DNA of 30,499 bases. It comes from a virus. The notes under the pieces are model-generated. The model did not search any database and was not told where the DNA came from. It worked only from the letters and a program-made list of their open reading frames with translations. Of this stretch, positions 745-15,495 are shown in pieces. How positions within the stretch are numbered: position 1 is the stretch's first letter; every line of letters starts with the position of its first letter. Both the position numbers and the translations under genes were made by a program. The stretch covers positions 1 to 30,499 of IMG/VR virus record IMGVR_UViG_3300030389_001651; one strand, given 5' to 3'.

Positions 745-3207
745 TTAATTTCTAGTAAGTAAATCTAAATTTTTAAATTCACGTTGTTGATCTAGTCTAG
801 CTCTAGCTGTTTCGTCACGCATTTCAGCAATTTCTTCTGAAGTGTCAATTCTTTCTCGATCTATTTGAGCTCTAGTTGCAGCGTCTTGTGCTTTTCTATT
901 TTCTTGTGCAATAAACTGTTGTTGCTCCATAGCTAATTCTTGTCCTTTCAAGGCTAGCTCTTGTTTTCTTATAGCTACTAATGGATCTTCGTCATCAGGA
1001 GATGCTATTTTAGATGTATATTCAGCAATAAGCTGTGACATAATCGGAGCAGAAAACTGAGCTAACACATTATTAGCTTCTAGCATAATTGCTTTTTGTT
1101 CAGCTGGACTAACTTGTTGAGCTTGTTGTTGTAATTGTTGAAACTGTTGCATAGCCTCTGGTGGCATTTGTTGTTGAGCTAAAATATCAGCTTTCATTTG
1201 TAAATGTTCCATAATGTGTGCATGTATCAAAGCTTGTACTTGTGCGTTCATTTGAACAGGAGGTGTATTTAACAAACTCATGTGTGTAGCTATGTGTGCA
1301 TCATGATTTTGTTCTGGGAAAGCTTTGGCAGGATTACCAAGCAATAATGCGTTGTTTTCAAAACCCGCTTCTTGTGGTTGTGGTTTAGTTGGTGGAGGAG
1401 GCATTAATATTTGTTCTATATTATCCACTCCAATTGCTGAGTACATACGCTTATAGGATTCATAAATGCCTGCTGCACCGTGCACTTCTGGGTTAGATTG
1501 CACTAATTGCATCATTTCTTGTGCCATGGCAATACGTTGCGATTGACTGAAAATATCTGGATTAGATATGGGGAATATATCAATTCTGTCGTCAAAGTCA
1601 GACAACTTAATCGAGGTATTGCCATTAGCGATTGCATATGGATATTCAGGTGGTAAATATTCTTGAAATACATTCGCAAGGATACGAAATTCTTTCTTTT
1701 GTGAGTTATGTAAACGCTTGTGAATAGCAGACAGAACTTTTGTAGATCTTTCAAGCAAAGCTAATGTTGTACCTACAGGTGCATTTGGATTACCTTGACC
1801 AACGTTAATTTCAGCAATAGAGGCAAACCTTTGGCCTGAATTTACCAGTAAATTTAACAAGCTTAAAAGTGTTTGACTGGGCTCTTTAAAAGGTAATGGC
1901 TGTATAGCCTGTCCTAAAATACCGCCTGGAGCATCAACATCTCTAAATTCGCCTGGTTGTAATGGTGTATCCTCGTCTCTAATCCTAATACCACGTGTTT
2001 TAAAGCCTGCAGGTAGGTTTGCAAGGGTACCAGCGTCTATCAACTGCCTTAAAATACTGGTTGAAGCCTTAGAAAGTCCTCCAATCATGTGAGTTAGGCC
2101 AAAACCGTAGAATCCTAGACCAGGTAAAAACTTAAAATGCACAAAATACTCTATTTTTTTACGTAACGGGTCATTTTCAGCATAATTACGGTAAATACTT
2201 AAAACGTTATTACTATTAGCATCTATGGTTACGATATAAGGTAGCTTCACACCTGTAACATTACCTTCTTCATCTACATCTTCAAAGCCATCTATATCTA
2301 AATTACAGTGTACTTCGTATAAAACCGATACTTCGCCAAGATCATAACTAGGTTCAAGGCCTGATAACTCATCTATTTCTTCTTGAACTTGACTATTTTC
2401 ATTCGAATAACTATTACTTACATCTATTTTTCTATAAAAACCTATAGCTTGCAGCTTTTTAAGCTCGTTTTCAGGCATTTTTACTAGATTTGTAATTCTA
2501 GGACAAGTTTCTAAGTCAGTTGTAAAATAAGGGACAATTAAATCTTCTGGTGCTATAAATTTAGATACCGCACGACCAAGGTTTTCATCATAATATATTT
2601 TTTTAAATGCCGAACCAGCTAAAGGTAGATAAAAAAGCATTTGATCTAGCTCTTCATCAAACTCTTCCATAACATGCACAATTTGATAGTTCATAAAATC
2701 AGCAACTCTTTGTGCTTGTTCTTCTACTACTGAATCATATTTGCCAACTATTTGTGTTTTAACAGGACCACCTGAAGGTAGTAATTCTTTATATGCTTGA
2801 GCTTGAAAATTAGTTACAGCTTCTCCTAACAAAGGATGTATCACACCAGATGCACCAGCAAAAGGCTCTGATCTTTCTTGATCAAACTTCATGCCTAGGT
2901 ATTTAAGACCGTCTGTATATGTTTTTTCCCAGTCTTCTCTGGAGGATTTATCTTTTTCAATACCCGCTATTAATTCTATTGATATTGTATTAAGTTGATT
3001 GTCGTCTAAAAACTCAGCTAGATTAGATCCAAAACCATCGTCTATTACAGTATCTTCCATACCACTTAAAATAGCACTACCGTCTTCTTGTAACTCAAAT
3101 TCTTCCTCATTTGCCTCTTTTACTGCATCTAAAACCACTGTCATGTCTTCAGTGCCTTGTAAAGAATTTATAGGATCTGTAGTGTTATCTTGTTTTTCAA
3201 TTGCCAT
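745..3207 (-). CDS. Portal protein (head-tail connector), 820 aa
   Basis: The portal forms the dodecameric ring at one capsid vertex through which DNA is packaged and ejected. The call rests on size, on direct coupling to the large terminase (its ATG overlaps the terminase TAA by one base), and on the conserved N-terminal region. That region runs from about residue 90 (REDWEKTYTDGLKYLG) through PFAGASGVIHPLLGEAVTNF (115-134) to LPLAGSAFKKIYYD (194-207), a pattern seen in large podovirus-type portals. The first 85 residues are acidic and probably flexible. The C-terminal part, from about residue 660, is Gln-rich and helical (MQQFQQLQQQAQQ) and ends in a charged coiled coil; this could form the barrel extension or be disordered. 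At 820 aa it exceeds P22 gp1 (725 aa). No frameshift or missing core segment is evident. Confidence 0.88.
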   Translation of the reverse strand: MAIEKQDNTTDPINSLQGTEDMTVVLDAVKEANEEEFELQEDGSAILSGMEDTVIDDGFGSNLAEFLDDNQLNTISIELIAGIEKDKSSREDWEKTYTDGLKYLGMKFDQERSEPFAGASGVIHPLLGEAVTNFQAQAYKELLPSGGPVKTQIVGKYDSVVEEQAQRVADFMNYQIVHVMEEFDEELDQMLFYLPLAGSAFKKIYYDENLGRAVSKFIAPEDLIVPYFTTDLETCPRITNLVKMPENELKKLQAIGFYRKIDVSNSYSNENSQVQEEIDELSGLEPSYDLGEVSVLYEVHCNLDIDGFEDVDEEGNVTGVKLPYIVTIDANSNNVLSIYRNYAENDPLRKKIEYFVHFKFLPGLGFYGFGLTHMIGGLSKASTSILRQLIDAGTLANLPAGFKTRGIRIRDEDTPLQPGEFRDVDAPGGILGQAIQPLPFKEPSQTLLSLLNLLVNSGQRFASIAEINVGQGNPNAPVGTTLALLERSTKVLSAIHKRLHNSQKKEFRILANVFQEYLPPEYPYAIANGNTSIKLSDFDDRIDIFPISNPDIFSQSQRIAMAQEMMQLVQSNPEVHGAAGIYESYKRMYSAIGVDNIEQILMPPPPTKPQPQEAGFENNALLLGNPAKAFPEQNHDAHIATHMSLLNTPPVQMNAQVQALIHAHIMEHLQMKADILAQQQMPPEAMQQFQQLQQQAQQVSPAEQKAIMLEANNVLAQFSAPIMSQLIAEYTSKIASPDDEDPLVAIRKQELALKGQELAMEQQQFIAQENRKAQDAATRAQIDRERIDTSEEIAEMRDETARARLDQQREFKNLDLLTRN

Positions 3208-4676
3208 TAGTAATATGCCCTTTTAATTACAACTCTCTCTTCGTCTGCATAATCATCGTGTAGCGAAACTAAACCACCTTCCCTAAAACGCATTAGGGCT
3301 TGAGACATAGTATCACATAAATCGTCATTTTTACCAAAAGGAAAAGCTGCACATTCTTCAATCATATCTTCTGCAAACTTTTTTTGTGGTGCCCAAACTA
3401 AACCAGATTCAAATATAGGTGCTACAGAGTGCATACGGGTAGATTTATCATGACCTCTAGTAGGTGAGTAATTCACCACAGGTATGCCTAGTCTTCTTAG
3501 CTCATGCGTTAAAGGTGTGCCAGATGCTTTAGATTCAATTAAAGTCATATCAGGATCCCAGTATTTATATTCTTCGTAAGCCACTCGTTTTAGTTCAGGA
3601 AAATCCCAACGGCCCTTTTGTGCGTCTAACAAAATGATAGAGTCTGGGTCATCAGGTGTAGGATTAAATACACCCCAGGTAGAAATGGCAGAGTAGTCAG
3701 AGTTTTGCTTTTTGCTATATGCAGTATCATAACTTTGAATAATATATTTTACAGGTGGCAAGGAATCATATTCCCAAGCGTTCCACCACTCACGTTTAAT
3801 AATCGAACCTTCTTCTGCAGTTGGTGTTTGCATCCACTGGGCGTTCCATTTCTGTGTCGGTAGTGAAGCTTTTACTTTACTTAATTCATCTATATCCCAA
3901 AACTCTGGCCACAAAGGATTACCAGAATCTTCAAAAATAGCAGGAAACTCTACAATATCCCACTGGTCAGCTAACTCTTCCTTTTGAGCCTCTAAAAGCT
4001 TTTCAGTAAGATCTAGTGAACTCCATCTAGTCATAACTAAAATAATAGCTCCTCCTGGTTGTAGCCTTTGTCTAGGACCAGAAGTGTACCATTCCCAACA
4101 AGCCTCCATAGCTGTAGGACTAAGTGCATCTTGTTCAGAATGTGGATCGTCAATAATTAACAAATCAGCACCACGGCCTGTTATAGCACCACCTACACCA
4201 GCAGCAAAATATTCACCACCTTTGTTGGTTTCCCATCGTCCTGCTGATTTAGAATCAGCTTGTAGTTCTACTTTACTAAATATTTTTTTATATTCTTCGG
4301 TATCCATCATGTTTCTAACTTTACGACCAAACCTTACAGCTAGCTCTCCTGTGTGAGTAGTTTGCATAATTTTACGATTTGGTTGTTTACCCATTATCCA
4401 AGCAGGAAAATAGGTAGAGCAAAACTCAGATTTGGTGTGTCTTGGTGGCATATTTATGATTAACCGTTTACAAGTGCCGTTAGCAACTTCTTCTAGCTTT
4501 TGTGCAAAAATTTTATGATGTCTACCACAAATAAACTCTGGCCACATGTAATTTATAAAATCTAAAAAAGATTCTTGACATTTATTTTGTTGTTCGATTA
4601 AAGCAAGACGCTCTTGCAACATTAAAGTTTCGCGTATTTCTGAATCAGATAAATGCGAAAAGTTAGGATTGGTCAT
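3207..4676 (-). CDS. terL: Terminase large subunit, 489 aa
   Basis: This is the ATP-driven DNA-packaging motor with an endonuclease that cuts concatemers. All key motifs are visible. The Walker A-like loop is NMPPRHTKS (residues 75-83), Walker B is LLIIDDP (172-178), and the TRW coupling motif is in VMTRWSS (214-220). The C-terminal RNase H-like nuclease has candidate metal ligands D316 (QSYDTAY), E381 (LIESKASG) and D452/D455 (NDDLCDTM). Length is normal for the family. The start at 4676 overlaps the end of the upstream gene by 14 bp. The portal follows with a TAATG junction. The small subunit is not adjacent; its likely gene lies about 10 kb away at 14866-15486. Confidence 0.96.
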   Translation of the reverse strand: MTNPNFSHLSDSEIRETLMLQERLALIEQQNKCQESFLDFINYMWPEFICGRHHKIFAQKLEEVANGTCKRLIINMPPRHTKSEFCSTYFPAWIMGKQPNRKIMQTTHTGELAVRFGRKVRNMMDTEEYKKIFSKVELQADSKSAGRWETNKGGEYFAAGVGGAITGRGADLLIIDDPHSEQDALSPTAMEACWEWYTSGPRQRLQPGGAIILVMTRWSSLDLTEKLLEAQKEELADQWDIVEFPAIFEDSGNPLWPEFWDIDELSKVKASLPTQKWNAQWMQTPTAEEGSIIKREWWNAWEYDSLPPVKYIIQSYDTAYSKKQNSDYSAISTWGVFNPTPDDPDSIILLDAQKGRWDFPELKRVAYEEYKYWDPDMTLIESKASGTPLTHELRRLGIPVVNYSPTRGHDKSTRMHSVAPIFESGLVWAPQKKFAEDMIEECAAFPFGKNDDLCDTMSQALMRFREGGLVSLHDDYADEERVVIKRAYY

Positions 4677-5024: not shown

Positions 5025-6437
5025 TTAGTTTTTTTTTTGACCTAATCCCATAGGGACTCTATACGATTGAAGTGCAATAATTTCTTGCTGTATTTTGTCT
5101 ATTTGATCAACCACTTCTTGAGCTCTTTCGAACTCATTATTTCTTACTAGCATATCGTAAGATGTCATAAGATTATTAATTAAAGCATTTAAAGAAAATA
5201 TTTGTTCTTCTGGAGTTTGACTGTTTGCTGGACCTCCAGATTCATAACCTCTTAATTTTCTTAATAGAATAAAATCTTGAACTCTTGGACTATCCATTGT
5301 AAGACCGTCTGCCCCCATCTCTGCTAATTTTAATAAATATTCATAATGAGCATCGCTGTTTATTCTTTTTTGATTTTCTATAGCTTCGCTAATAAGTTTA
5401 GAACTTTCATCTACACCTAGCTCTTTTTGTAATAATTCTAAATATATATTAACTGGTTCGGTCTTAAAAATATTTCGACCTGTTTTAGTTTCTGTTAATA
5501 CATTACCTCTGTAGTCAACTACATCATTTGCAATATATCCTAGATATTCTTGTATTCTTTTTTCACGCTCAGTTGGTTTTGGCACGTCAACCACTGTTGG
5601 ATCTGTATAAGTCACTATTTCATTAGCACTAGGCCCTCCTCTGGCCATCATCATAGGTTCTTGGGGTGTTTGCATTTGTGATCCTCCTAATAATTGTTGC
5701 ATATCTATACCTAAAACTTGAGCTGCTTGCTCTAACTCAGCCTCAGTAATACCGTATTGTTCTAATAATGCGATAATTTCGTCTTCGCTTAAACCTTGTT
5801 GAACAAGTGTTTCAATAACTTGTAATATTTGCATCAATCCCTCTTGAGCCTCTTGCACCTCCATCTGACTAACTTCATCCATAGGCATTTGTGATTGCAT
5901 TTGACCAGATAAATCTGGGGGCATAGGAGTCCCTTGCATTTGCATACCACCGCCTTCTGCCATTGTTTGTATAGGCTGTTGCATTATTTGCATTTCCTCC
6001 ATTGGTTGTGGCACTTGTTGAGGGGGTAATGGAGGCATCATTATTCTTTCTCCAACACTTTCTGGGGTTGGTGGATTTTGCAACTTATCTATTTCATCTA
6101 AATAACCAAATTTTACTAATTCTAAATAGTTTTTTGGGTTGTCTACTAATGTTTGTTTTAAGTTTTTTTGTGCTTCTTGAAGTGCTTGTTCGATAGAAAA
6201 TCTTTCTTTTGCAAAAAATCTACCTAATTCTTCTGGATTTGTAATTAGTAAATTTGAAAATGATGGTGATTGTGTAAATCCATCTGTAGCATCATAAAGT
6301 AAAGGTGCACCAGCCATAGTTCCTAAAGCTAAAAATTTTGGATCTGTAACTGCTGTAGCAGCTATACCAGCTTTGACTAATGATCCTGGCAAGGCTCTAG
6401 ATGCTAAACCGAAGGCTGCTGGTACTTGTAATGCCAT
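5025..6437 (-). CDS. M/Q-rich probable virion or assembly protein, 470 aa
   Basis: The N-terminus is hydrophobic and Ala/Gly-rich (residues 5-50, with AAFGLASRALPG and FLALGTMAGAPLLYD). A long Met/Gln/Pro-rich region follows (about 130-270) containing the repeated turn motif MAEGGG / MARGGPS. A charged helical C-terminal domain contains a third variant, YESGGPAN. Such M-A-x-G-G motifs are common in structural proteins of marine phages; one also occurs in the gene at the right edge of this window. There is a start with TAGGAAT about nine bases upstream. It is the first gene of the terminase-portal block. The stop TAA follows directly after a slippery A AAA AAC, so a 591-aa frameshifted form is likely. 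Function unknown; scaffold, ejection or tail accessory roles are all possible. Confidence 0.75.
   Translation of the reverse strand: MALQVPAAFGLASRALPGSLVKAGIAATAVTDPKFLALGTMAGAPLLYDATDGFTQSPSFSNLLITNPEELGRFFAKERFSIEQALQEAQKNLKQTLVDNPKNYLELVKFGYLDEIDKLQNPPTPESVGERIMMPPLPPQQVPQPMEEMQIMQQPIQTMAEGGGMQMQGTPMPPDLSGQMQSQMPMDEVSQMEVQEAQEGLMQILQVIETLVQQGLSEDEIIALLEQYGITEAELEQAAQVLGIDMQQLLGGSQMQTPQEPMMMARGGPSANEIVTYTDPTVVDVPKPTEREKRIQEYLGYIANDVVDYRGNVLTETKTGRNIFKTEPVNIYLELLQKELGVDESSKLISEAIENQKRINSDAHYEYLLKLAEMGADGLTMDSPRVQDFILLRKLRGYESGGPANSQTPEEQIFSLNALINNLMTSYDMLVRNNEFERAQEVVDQIDKIQQEIIALQSYRVPMGLGQKKN
5028..5038 (-). promoter_or_regulatory. Candidate -1 ribosomal frameshift site (A AAA AAC in a run of ten A)
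   Basis: On the coding strand the end of the 470-aa gene reads CAA AAA AAA AAC TAA. It contains a zero-frame A AAA AAC heptamer (5034-5028), a classic simultaneous-slippage sequence, directly before the stop. A -1 slip enters an open frame that continues to 4663 and adds 121 residues. Downstream, an imperfect hairpin can form, GATCAAC-AGAT-GTTGGTTC with one bulge, about 18 nt past the heptamer; this is farther than the usual 5-9 nt. The A10 run could instead act by polymerase slippage, or be a sequencing or assembly error. Confidence 0.55.
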
Positions 6438-6492
6438 AATATTTTATTCCTAAAATAAATATTAAATTGGGTGCAGTCTGTACGGAGGTAAT

Positions 6493-6567
6493 ATGAAGTA
6501 CATATTTGACCACACCCGCCTTATAGCGATTGTATCATCAAAAATAAAAAATACTAGATTCTTTTAA
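6493..6567 (+). CDS. Possible 24-aa peptide antisense to the terminase-block leader
   Basis: An ATG preceded by CGGAGGTAAT, one of the best Shine-Dalgarno sequences in the window, opens a 24-codon frame (MKYIFDHTRLIAIVSS...) ending in TAA. It lies on the opposite strand to everything around it, and no plus-strand gene follows for 2.4 kb. It could be a genuine small peptide, a leader, or chance. The good ribosome site and the less AT-rich codons in its first half are the only evidence. Confidence 0.3.
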   Translation: MKYIFDHTRLIAIVSSKIKNTRFF

Positions 6568-6705
6568 AAATTAAAATTGTGTGAGAGAAATCTTGTACTT
6601 GTATATGTATATATATTATAGGGTCAGTTTTTTGGTGGTGGGGGGTCTTAAATAATTGTATTTGTATATAAAAATGGGGGTCTAAGGGAACCTAGTTGTT
6701 ATAGC

Positions 6706-6733
6706 AATAAAAAAGGGATCATGCGATCCCCCT
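6706..6733 (-). terminator. Rho-independent terminator for the 8044-6758 gene set
   Basis: Read on the minus strand, it is a perfect 6-bp stem GGGATC-GCAT-GATCCC (6730-6715) followed by six T (6714-6709) and ATT. It sits 25 bases after the last stop codon of the small-gene block. Both stem arms contain a GATC, so it also forms the left end of the GATC cluster. Confidence 0.88.
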
Positions 6734-7021
6734 TTATGATCTACTGATCTGCCGATCTTACGAGTGATACCACATGTCCCATTTCTGCACGATCTCATAA
6801 ACATCTGGATCATGATCCTGTTGATCTACGATCAATTTTTTAAGATCATTAAATACCGCTAATCTATATTCATATCGATCTGGTTTATGATCTAAATACC
6901 CTTGATCCATAAAGTATATATGATCTTCGCACATGATCTTTTCTTTCTTGATCCATTCAACCATATCTTTTGCTTCTTCAATAAATGATCTTTTAAGATC
7001 AACGAAAGAGATAAACCGATC
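6717..7021. repeat. Dense cluster of GATC sites (20 in 305 bp)
   Basis: I counted GATC starting at 6717, 6725, 6738, 6746, 6754, 6791, 6808, 6814, 6823, 6830, 6844, 6877, 6889, 6904, 6922, 6935, 6950, 6987, 6997 and 7018. At this base composition about one would be expected. Five sites lie in non-coding DNA past the stop at 6758. The fifteen inside the gene fall in all three codon phases (10, 1 and 4), so protein sequence alone does not explain them. Neighbouring genes show ordinary GATC counts. Comparable clustering is known at oriC and other Dam/SeqA-controlled origins; its function here is unknown. Confidence 0.9.
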
Positions 7022-7102
7022 ATGTTTGAATTCTCTATTGTTTATCTTTTGATATTTAAGAGCAATTTGTTGCTCATCTTCCCAACGTTCTTGTGCGTTC
7101 AT
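6758..7102 (-). CDS. Unknown acidic/aromatic protein, 114 aa, carrying the GATC cluster
   Basis: A charged helical protein with no recognised family. The N-terminus (ERWEDEQQIALKYQKIN) is amphipathic; the C-terminal half is rich in Asp, Tyr and Trp (QQDHDPDVYEIVQKWDMWY). Asp is often followed by His, Arg, Leu, Gln or Pro, because GAT codons are followed by C-initial codons. That makes the gene a carrier of GATC sites. It overlaps the upstream gene by four bases (ATGA) and is the last gene before a strong terminator. Confidence 0.75.
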   Translation of the reverse strand: MNAQERWEDEQQIALKYQKINNREFKHDRFISFVDLKRSFIEEAKDMVEWIKKEKIMCEDHIYFMDQGYLDHKPDRYEYRLAVFNDLKKLIVDQQDHDPDVYEIVQKWDMWYHS

Positions 7103-7287
7103 TCTAAGCCTCCCATATCTTTTAAAGTTCCAAAACTATGATACATAACAGAATTATCTTCATCTTGTAAATGAAGTTTTAATTGTCCAAAACTATGTAC
7201 CATTACAAAACCTTTTTCTTCATCATCTTTTATTTGTTTCGCAACTTGTTCTGAAACATAATTAGCATATTCTTTTTTATTTTTCAT
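7099..7287 (-). CDS. Small protein with an internal HSFGxLK repeat, 62 aa
   Basis: No known family. The sequence contains two copies of an eight-residue motif, VHSFGQLK (about 30-37) and YHSFGTLK (about 49-56). The DNA also repeats (CCAAAACTATG on the plus strand), so a short internal duplication is likely. The N-terminal half is a Lys/Glu-rich helix. The start has an excellent AGGAGGT seven bases upstream. It is coupled to the following gene by an ATGA overlap. Confidence 0.75.
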   Translation of the reverse strand: MKNKKEYANYVSEQVAKQIKDDEEKGFVMVHSFGQLKLHLQDEDNSVMYHSFGTLKDMGGLE

Positions 7288-7310
7288 ATTACCTCCTTTT
7301 ATTTAACAGA

Positions 7311-14845: not shown

Positions 14846-14937
14846 TGTTTGAAGGTTGGACTTTTTTAAATTGGTTTGGCTTTATCGCAATCTGTTGGTG
14901 TGTCTTCCACCCCTTGTTGACTAGCAGAAGAAGATAA
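14845..14937 (+). CDS. Possible 30-aa membrane peptide antisense to the small terminase end
   Basis: Starts at TAATG with GGAG nine bases upstream. The peptide is very hydrophobic (FLNWFGFIAICWCVFHPLL) and ends in SRRR, a positive-out or positive-in anchor pattern. It overlaps the last 72 bases of the terminase gene on the other strand, so it could be chance. If real, it is the last gene of the array. Confidence 0.35.
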   Translation: MFEGWTFLNWFGFIAICWCVFHPLLTSRRR

Positions 14938-15486
14938 TTTTTTTTCCTCAACTTCCTCTATTACCTTTGGATCTTCTTTTTTAGTTTCAACACCTATCTC
15001 TATAATATTACCCATAAGCTGTGCTAAACGCTGTTCTACTTCTTTTCTACTCATTTGATCTATTTTGCCGAACATAACCTCTTTTCTATCTACTATAAGG
15101 CCACCAACCCTTAAAAGAGAGTTTTGGGCAGATATTGCAGCATTAAAAGATCCTGCAGCTAAAGCCTTATCTCTTATATCATATAAATCCTGGACTGCCC
15201 TATCATAATTAAGTTCATACTTTTTCTTAACTTCATTAGATAAAAAATTAAATTCTTTTCTAACCAGCTCATTCTTAAACACATTAACTGCAGCTTGGCG
15301 TGGATCTTTATAACCAGCTTTACTGGCACACTCTATTAAAGATAGTCTTGGATTATTAACAGCTATCCATACAAAGTTTCTTTGTCTTCTGGTAAGTTTG
15401 TTGTCTAGGTTAGCGAATTCAGGTGGAACTTCCTCTTCATCAGATATGATAGGCTCGTATTCTAGTTTATGTTTTTTGAATCCCAT
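14866..15486 (-). CDS. terS: Probable terminase small subunit, 206 aa
   Basis: Small terminases recognise the packaging site and load the large subunit. LTRRQRNFVWIAVNNPRLSL (31-50) followed by IECASKAGYKDPRQAAVNVF is the N-terminal HTH typical of Terminase_2-type small subunits, which usually read LTxxQxxFV...N...AAxxAGY. The middle is helical, for oligomerisation, and the C-terminus is acidic and disordered. I start at the ATG at 15486; a TTG three codons earlier extends the frame. Neither has a clear Shine-Dalgarno. It is unlinked to the large subunit and is transcribed from its own region, next to repeats that could include the packaging site. Confidence 0.8.
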   Translation of the reverse strand: MGFKKHKLEYEPIISDEEEVPPEFANLDNKLTRRQRNFVWIAVNNPRLSLIECASKAGYKDPRQAAVNVFKNELVRKEFNFLSNEVKKKYELNYDRAVQDLYDIRDKALAAGSFNAAISAQNSLLRVGGLIVDRKEVMFGKIDQMSRKEVEQRLAQLMGNIIEIGVETKKEDPKVIEEVEEKKLSSSASQQGVEDTPTDCDKAKPI

Positions 15487-15495
15487 ATTAAGCAA

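Follow-up and report, generated by a model that had tools for sequence, protein, structure and literature searches.

A dense GATC array between the terminase genes of an HTVC023P-like phage: a candidate packaging region

What would read twenty copies of the same four letters crowded into 305 bp of a phage genome, and would that reader belong to the host or to the phage? The question is raised by the window, i.e. the whole stretch of 30,499 nucleotides analysed here (positions 1 to 30,499 of IMG/VR record IMGVR_UViG_3300030389_001651), for which a preliminary description had reported the GATC cluster, proposed selection or duplication at DNA level and named oriC and P1-type origins with Dam/SeqA control as known analogues. 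The features of the window on which the argument turns are as follows.

745 to 3207, minus strand: portal protein (phrog_1216), homologous to the portal of HTVC023P-type phages and DSL-LC04
3207 to 4676, minus strand: TerL (phrog_38, E 2e-114), 55-62% identical to that of HTVC023P-type phages and DSL-LC04
5025 to 6437, minus strand: 470-aa gene with no family match, the first downstream of the array towards terL
6440 to 6700, minus strand: conserved intergenic stretch from the array to the 470-aa gene, with the TAGGTTCCCTTAGACCCCC element, a C-tract, a promoter-like A/T stretch and a hairpin (alignment of relatives; sequences of L004, L003 and L007)
6710 to 6735, minus strand: terminator-like, GC-rich hairpin, a GATC in each arm and T6 after it (predicted fold)
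6717 to 7021, no strand: array of 20 GATC, candidate terminase recognition (pac) array (counts, codon nulls, k-mer scan; kept in all close relatives)
6758 to 7102, minus strand: 114-aa gene holding 15 of the 20 sites, product predicted all-helical, also found in other phages without the array
14866 to 15495, minus strand: TerS (tblastn with annotated TerS of HTVC027P, E 1e-17, HTVC023P, 8e-12, and DSL-LC04, 4e-7; HMM)

Excess of GATC over sequence and codon nulls

Direct counting gave 20 GATC at 6717-7021 (305 bp), where 1.03 would be expected from the density of the window outside the cluster (Poisson P(>=20) ~3e-19) and 0.96 from base composition, so the reported excess of about 20 times expectation was reproduced. 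Apart from the A and T homopolymers no other tetramer reached 20 in 305 bp, and no k-mer of the window clustered more strongly than GATC (score 34.7 vs 11.7 for the next tetramer). Of the five sites past the stop codon (6754, 6746, 6738, 6725, 6717), two sit in the arms of the terminator hairpin, as had been described, and the 15 sites in the 114-aa gene occupy all three codon phases (10/1/4), as had also been stated. When the gene's own codons were permuted, 9.2±1.4 in-gene sites were obtained (maximum 14 in 5000), and a synonymous null with genome codon usage gave 6.0±1.5; the codon-preserving shuffles thus fall short of the observed 15, and the excess over such nulls was similar in five relatives. 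Protein and codon usage account for about 40% of the in-gene GATC, and the remainder is unexplained by them. The whole window contained 122 GATC (102 without the cluster) vs 79±10 in shuffles, and the avoidance of this word expected of phages therefore does not apply here. Within the window we found no helical phasing of the GATC spacing, no wider consensus around the sites except that C is absent at -1 in the non-coding ones, and nothing significant in Rfam over the array.

Two other elements were observed beside the array. At 6660-6700, directly after it, TAGGTTCCCTTAGACCCCC and a C-rich/A-rich tract are kept in most clade A contigs (defined below). At 6455-6512, just before the 470-aa gene, there is a conserved hairpin whose loop, TTCATATTACCTCC, is complementary to the Shine-Dalgarno/start region of a 62-aa gene (about 7285-7298); read on the opposite strand, the hairpin offers an SD-ATG and a small ORF (MKYIFDHT...).

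The 114-aa gene and the phage backbone

The 114-aa protein is encoded in fifteen viral contigs, to which a profile search adds more, and its homologues form two sets, clade A (72-100% identity) and clade B (40-52%). All close relatives in clade A possess a dense GATC cluster, with 13-23 sites per 305 bp where the contig covers the region, and their TerL are 94-100% identical and their TerS, where the contig reaches it, 89-91%. In the alignment of homologues that had been proposed as a check, the density is kept in clade A while the individual positions turn over: among 48 distinct GATC columns only 6 are common to all six sequences, and every sequence is still dense. Between clade A sequences GATC was retained at 0.75, whereas the tetramers of the gene averaged 0.475. 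L003 has more than 40 GATC over 800 bp, mostly non-coding, and contains 32-bp units (GATC at 0, +10, +23) in which GATC is kept and the linkers have diverged, and in L005 and L007 the non-coding DNA past the gene is unlike that of the window yet again full of GATC. Together with the codon nulls, the retention, the turnover of sites at a maintained count and the L003 repeats support the suggested selection at DNA level on GATC in the array.

In clade B the densest 305 bp hold 4-8 GATC and there is no dense cluster, and these phages also lack the TerL of the window, with the exception of a 75% TerL in the intermediate record of L043. That the protein should be kept and the GATC sites lost had been named in the preliminary description as grounds for giving up its claim; this is what is found in clade B, but on an unrelated backbone, so the array is separated from the gene and the claim of an array is left intact. 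Since clade B has neither the cluster nor this TerL, the 114-aa gene has passed from phage to phage, and the array is a property of the backbone, not of the gene. The 114-aa protein itself had no match in Pfam, PHROG, PDB or BFVD, and was accordingly dismissed as a known DNA binder. In clade B phages two hammerhead-ribozyme-like motifs (CUGAUGAG...GAAAC...GUC, at L011:5901-5964 and L011:6368-6417) flank the homologue, with Rfam Hammerhead_HH9 E values of 0.13 and 0.32, below gathering.

The closest named phages by TerL (55-62%) were the Pelagibacter phages HTVC023P, HTVC027P and 023Pt_psg01, and DSL-LC04. Genes for CsgG, FecR and a CHASE2-cyclase lie in the tail of the record, and this curli/FecR/cyclase module is known from HTVC023P-type phages (PMC9599517). 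By the homology of its TerL, TerS and portal, and by this module, the phage of the window can be placed in an HTVC023P-like marine group. A search for the host through genomes encoding the 114-aa protein found none; TerL matches in MAGs and single cells fell in SAR11 and mixed bins, and the single match near the window clade was a TerL of 79% identity from the MAG of a gammaproteobacterium.

Arrays of other words between terS and terL

In the window terS and terL are apart, with the GATC array in the interval, upstream of terL. Each of the four complete relatives also has its strongest k-mer cluster between TerS and TerL, in 5-8% of the genome, and the word differs from one to the next: CACG, CGCA, GCGAGC and CAAGC. 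Across the group we found lineage-specific words (GATC, GCTTG, CGCA, CGAGC, CCGA, CTTACC), the sequences of relatives showing heptads (GCTTGNN, CTTACNN), among other repeats, and arrays that resemble iterons in their steps of 7 or 10 bp; the SAR11-associated relatives with GCTTG words are HTVC027P and contigs L456, L463 and L464. At 24 loci where both genes are present, k-mer clusters were sought without bias; 27 of 35 arrays, and none in shuffles, fell in a zone that starts 700 bp beyond TerS, ends at TerL and covers 31% of the sequence (p=3e-8; the 700-bp margin was chosen after the data had been seen), and a second sample of genome contigs, for which the margin was fixed, placed 12 of 13 there (p=6e-5), both samples including related phages, so that both p-values are too small. 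For the bare TerS-TerL interval the density was 0.143 arrays per kb inside vs 0.038 outside. Some arrays are located beyond terS and some overlap coding sequence, and the nearest non-clade relatives, L188 and L446 (TerL 79%), have no strong array. GATC arrays occur in at least four TerS lineages, with 7-8 changes on the TerS tree, and therefore the word does not simply follow TerS. Judged from these sequences, the constant feature is the TerS-TerL interval, not GATC, and the word differs by lineage.

The same position was recovered in blind scans of 2.9 million viral contigs, in which TerL and TerS HMMs built from the proteins of this group were run on the fetched stretches. The pattern of five GATC with steps of 8-13, 10, 10 and 8-13 bp returned 67 stretches (49 clusters at 90% identity), with the TerL of the group in 29 (16 clusters at 90% and 10 at 80% identity; one of them, L280, with a weak TerL score only) and TerS alone in 7. 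The array was upstream of TerL in 29/29, by 0.55-3.1 kb, and TerS, where in reach, was beyond the array in nearly all stretches, L322 being an exception. The 114 10-bp steps contained 65 different linkers, a spacing that is favoured by the search pattern and a variety that is not. A composition-matched GTAC control with the same pattern gave at least 120 stretches and, among the matches listed, the TerL of the group never reached full score. When GCTTGNN x4 was the pattern, group TerS or TerL was present in 112 of 120 among the matches listed, where 142 copies were upstream of TerL and 0 downstream, and 16/16 NN were in use as linkers. In an earlier scan with four GATC, GATC-rich high-GC phages dominate among the matches listed. 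In an unrelated lineage (L142, L166-L169; TerL phrog_2) a GATC array directly precedes a small TerS-like gene and TerL, and relatives of this lineage at 61% identity (L170-L172) are without it.

A candidate packaging region and competing readings

Previous studies showed that seven GATC hexamers in pacA of phage P1 flank the packaging cut (PMC10028697). The array of the window resembles P1 pac in being a GATC cluster (4+3 in about 160 bp in P1), in coding DNA and at a terminase locus, and, as P1-type pac sites lie in or next to the terminase genes, so it lies between terS and terL. In P1 pac, however, the cut is flanked by two blocks with seven TGATCA/G hexamers in all, and Dam is required, whereas the window has 20 sites that do not form a fixed hexamer (the cluster contains one TGATCR/YGATCA, the GATC core alone being common to both), no phage MethyltransfD12, an array between a split terS and terL, and relatives in which the word changes. 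P1 oriR and E. coli oriC also have dense GATC, but they serve replication control with DnaA or initiator boxes, while the relatives of the window use other words; by analogy, P1 pac would be the better match than the P1 origin, and the nearest known one. In SPP1 and SF6 the pac repeats extend over the beginning of the small terminase gene and are not the same in the two phages, the SPP1 boxA repeats being replaced by other repeats in SF6, and the isolated TerS HTH of SF6 binds pac DNA with little sequence preference (PMC4737164). The likeness to these sites (boxA, B, C) is in repeats at the terS locus whose sequence varies between relatives, and the difference is that SPP1 and SF6 have few box copies adjoining terS, while this group has up to tens of 4-5-bp words; the little preference of the SF6 HTH calls for caution against a simple reading of the word by TerS. 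The HTVC023P-type pelagiphages (HTVC023P, HTVC027P, 023Pt) share with the window the TerL, portal, split terS-terL, curli genes (CsgG, FecR, cyclase) and arrays in the same interval, and differ in the array words, which are CGCA, GCTTGNN or CGAGC instead of GATC. Our limited search of the literature found neither terS-terL arrays in these phages nor a changing word there described.

Because the same interval holds arrays of GATC or of some other short word in many related phages, the cluster may well be a packaging address label, and we tentatively read it, at somewhat less than even chances, as the window clade's form of a short-word array and a candidate pac (packaging-initiation) region. 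The small terminase, alone or together with a further phage protein, would assemble on the many copies of the word, label phage concatemers as its own cargo and bring in TerL and the portal for packaging to start; the word could spread over the end of a neighbouring gene through synonymous and tolerated changes, and could change between lineages because its copies are short and many. We infer that TerS would bind and cleavage would occur at the array, and that packaging would be headful. Several facts speak against the pac reading: the array, 0.1-1 kb from terS in many relatives, is 4-8 kb away in the window clade and about 8 kb in the window itself; L237 alone holds CGAC, GCTTG, AAGC and GATC arrays, more than a single pac needs; L188 and L446 are without a strong array; the word is not tied to the TerS lineage in any simple way; and helical phasing is absent in the window. 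The position of the array is well documented and its function poorly, packaging-site repeats being a known kind. Further, it is conceivable, if doubtful, that the address switches its motif, the word being exchanged in evolution and relatives in the same cell thereby kept from packaging one another's DNA.

Replication control of the origin or iteron type, in which a phage initiator or host factor binds the words and opens nearby DNA, would suit the iteron-like steps in relatives and the A/T-rich conserved intergenic DNA adjoining the array; the replication genes, however, are elsewhere, the arrays hug terS and precede terL, and in the four complete relatives GC skew, a weak test in phages, does not turn at the interval, skew near 6.9 kb having been suggested as a check in the preliminary description. 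We consider this reading unlikely. A late-operon array, on which a phage transcription factor would switch on the terL-portal operon, seems just as unlikely: the array is at the upstream edge of that operon, before the conserved promoter-like stretch, but arrays are also found beyond terS and over coding sequence, and tens of sites exceed the usual need of an operator.

Host-read methylation, by which Dam-methylated GATC (with SeqA or similar) would gate packaging or late transcription, draws on the Dam sites of P1 pac and on the recurrence of GATC in several TerS lineages and in the unrelated L142 lineage. Against it, no record of the clade has a MethyltransfD12 homologue, which also disposes of a phage-borne Dam, and MethyltransfD12 passed the cut-off in 1 of 60 sampled SAR11-family genomes (hosts of HTVC023P/HTVC027P, which may not be the host of the window clade). 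Moreover, arrays of GCTTG, CGCA, CGAGC, CCGA and others at the same place mean that a GATC-specific host system is no explanation, and the origin under Dam/SeqA control put forward earlier found no support in the same evidence or in the skew. We regard methylation as quite unlikely; Dam/SeqA is possible for the GATC members and is not needed, because SAR11-associated relatives use GCTTG and almost all SAR11-family genomes are without MethyltransfD12. Dam/SeqA control does not follow from a GATC cluster, however striking. Very improbable, finally, is a decoy titrating a host GATC-specific enzyme, or a by-product of protein sequence and tandem duplication: GATC is often a restriction target, about six sites are expected from the protein alone and L003 has its 32-bp duplications, but the place between terS and terL is fixed, the words elsewhere are non-palindromic, and the word is kept while linkers differ. 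For the packaging reading the group is of use in itself, as the recognition by small terminases of their own genome is poorly understood and a natural series of words at one place is offered here; since it includes cultured members (HTVC023P, HTVC027P), the link between word and terminase is directly testable.

Repeated short words were also observed outside this group. Many viral contigs carry GTAC arrays (TGTACCGAACTGTACCGAAATGTACCGAAATCGGTAC; L326, L328, L329, L336, L339 and others), possibly another iteron-type system, and contigs of other phages contain long near-perfect tandem GATC repeats (GATCTAATGC, GATCGGCTT and GATCAGGTCA; L301:2488-2765, L321:4962-5260 and L311:1-115). Further GATC arrays were noted in L164, L113, L055 and L084, that at L164:10218-10485 comprising sixteen GATC in coding frame and adjoining an FtsK/SpoIIIE-like gene.
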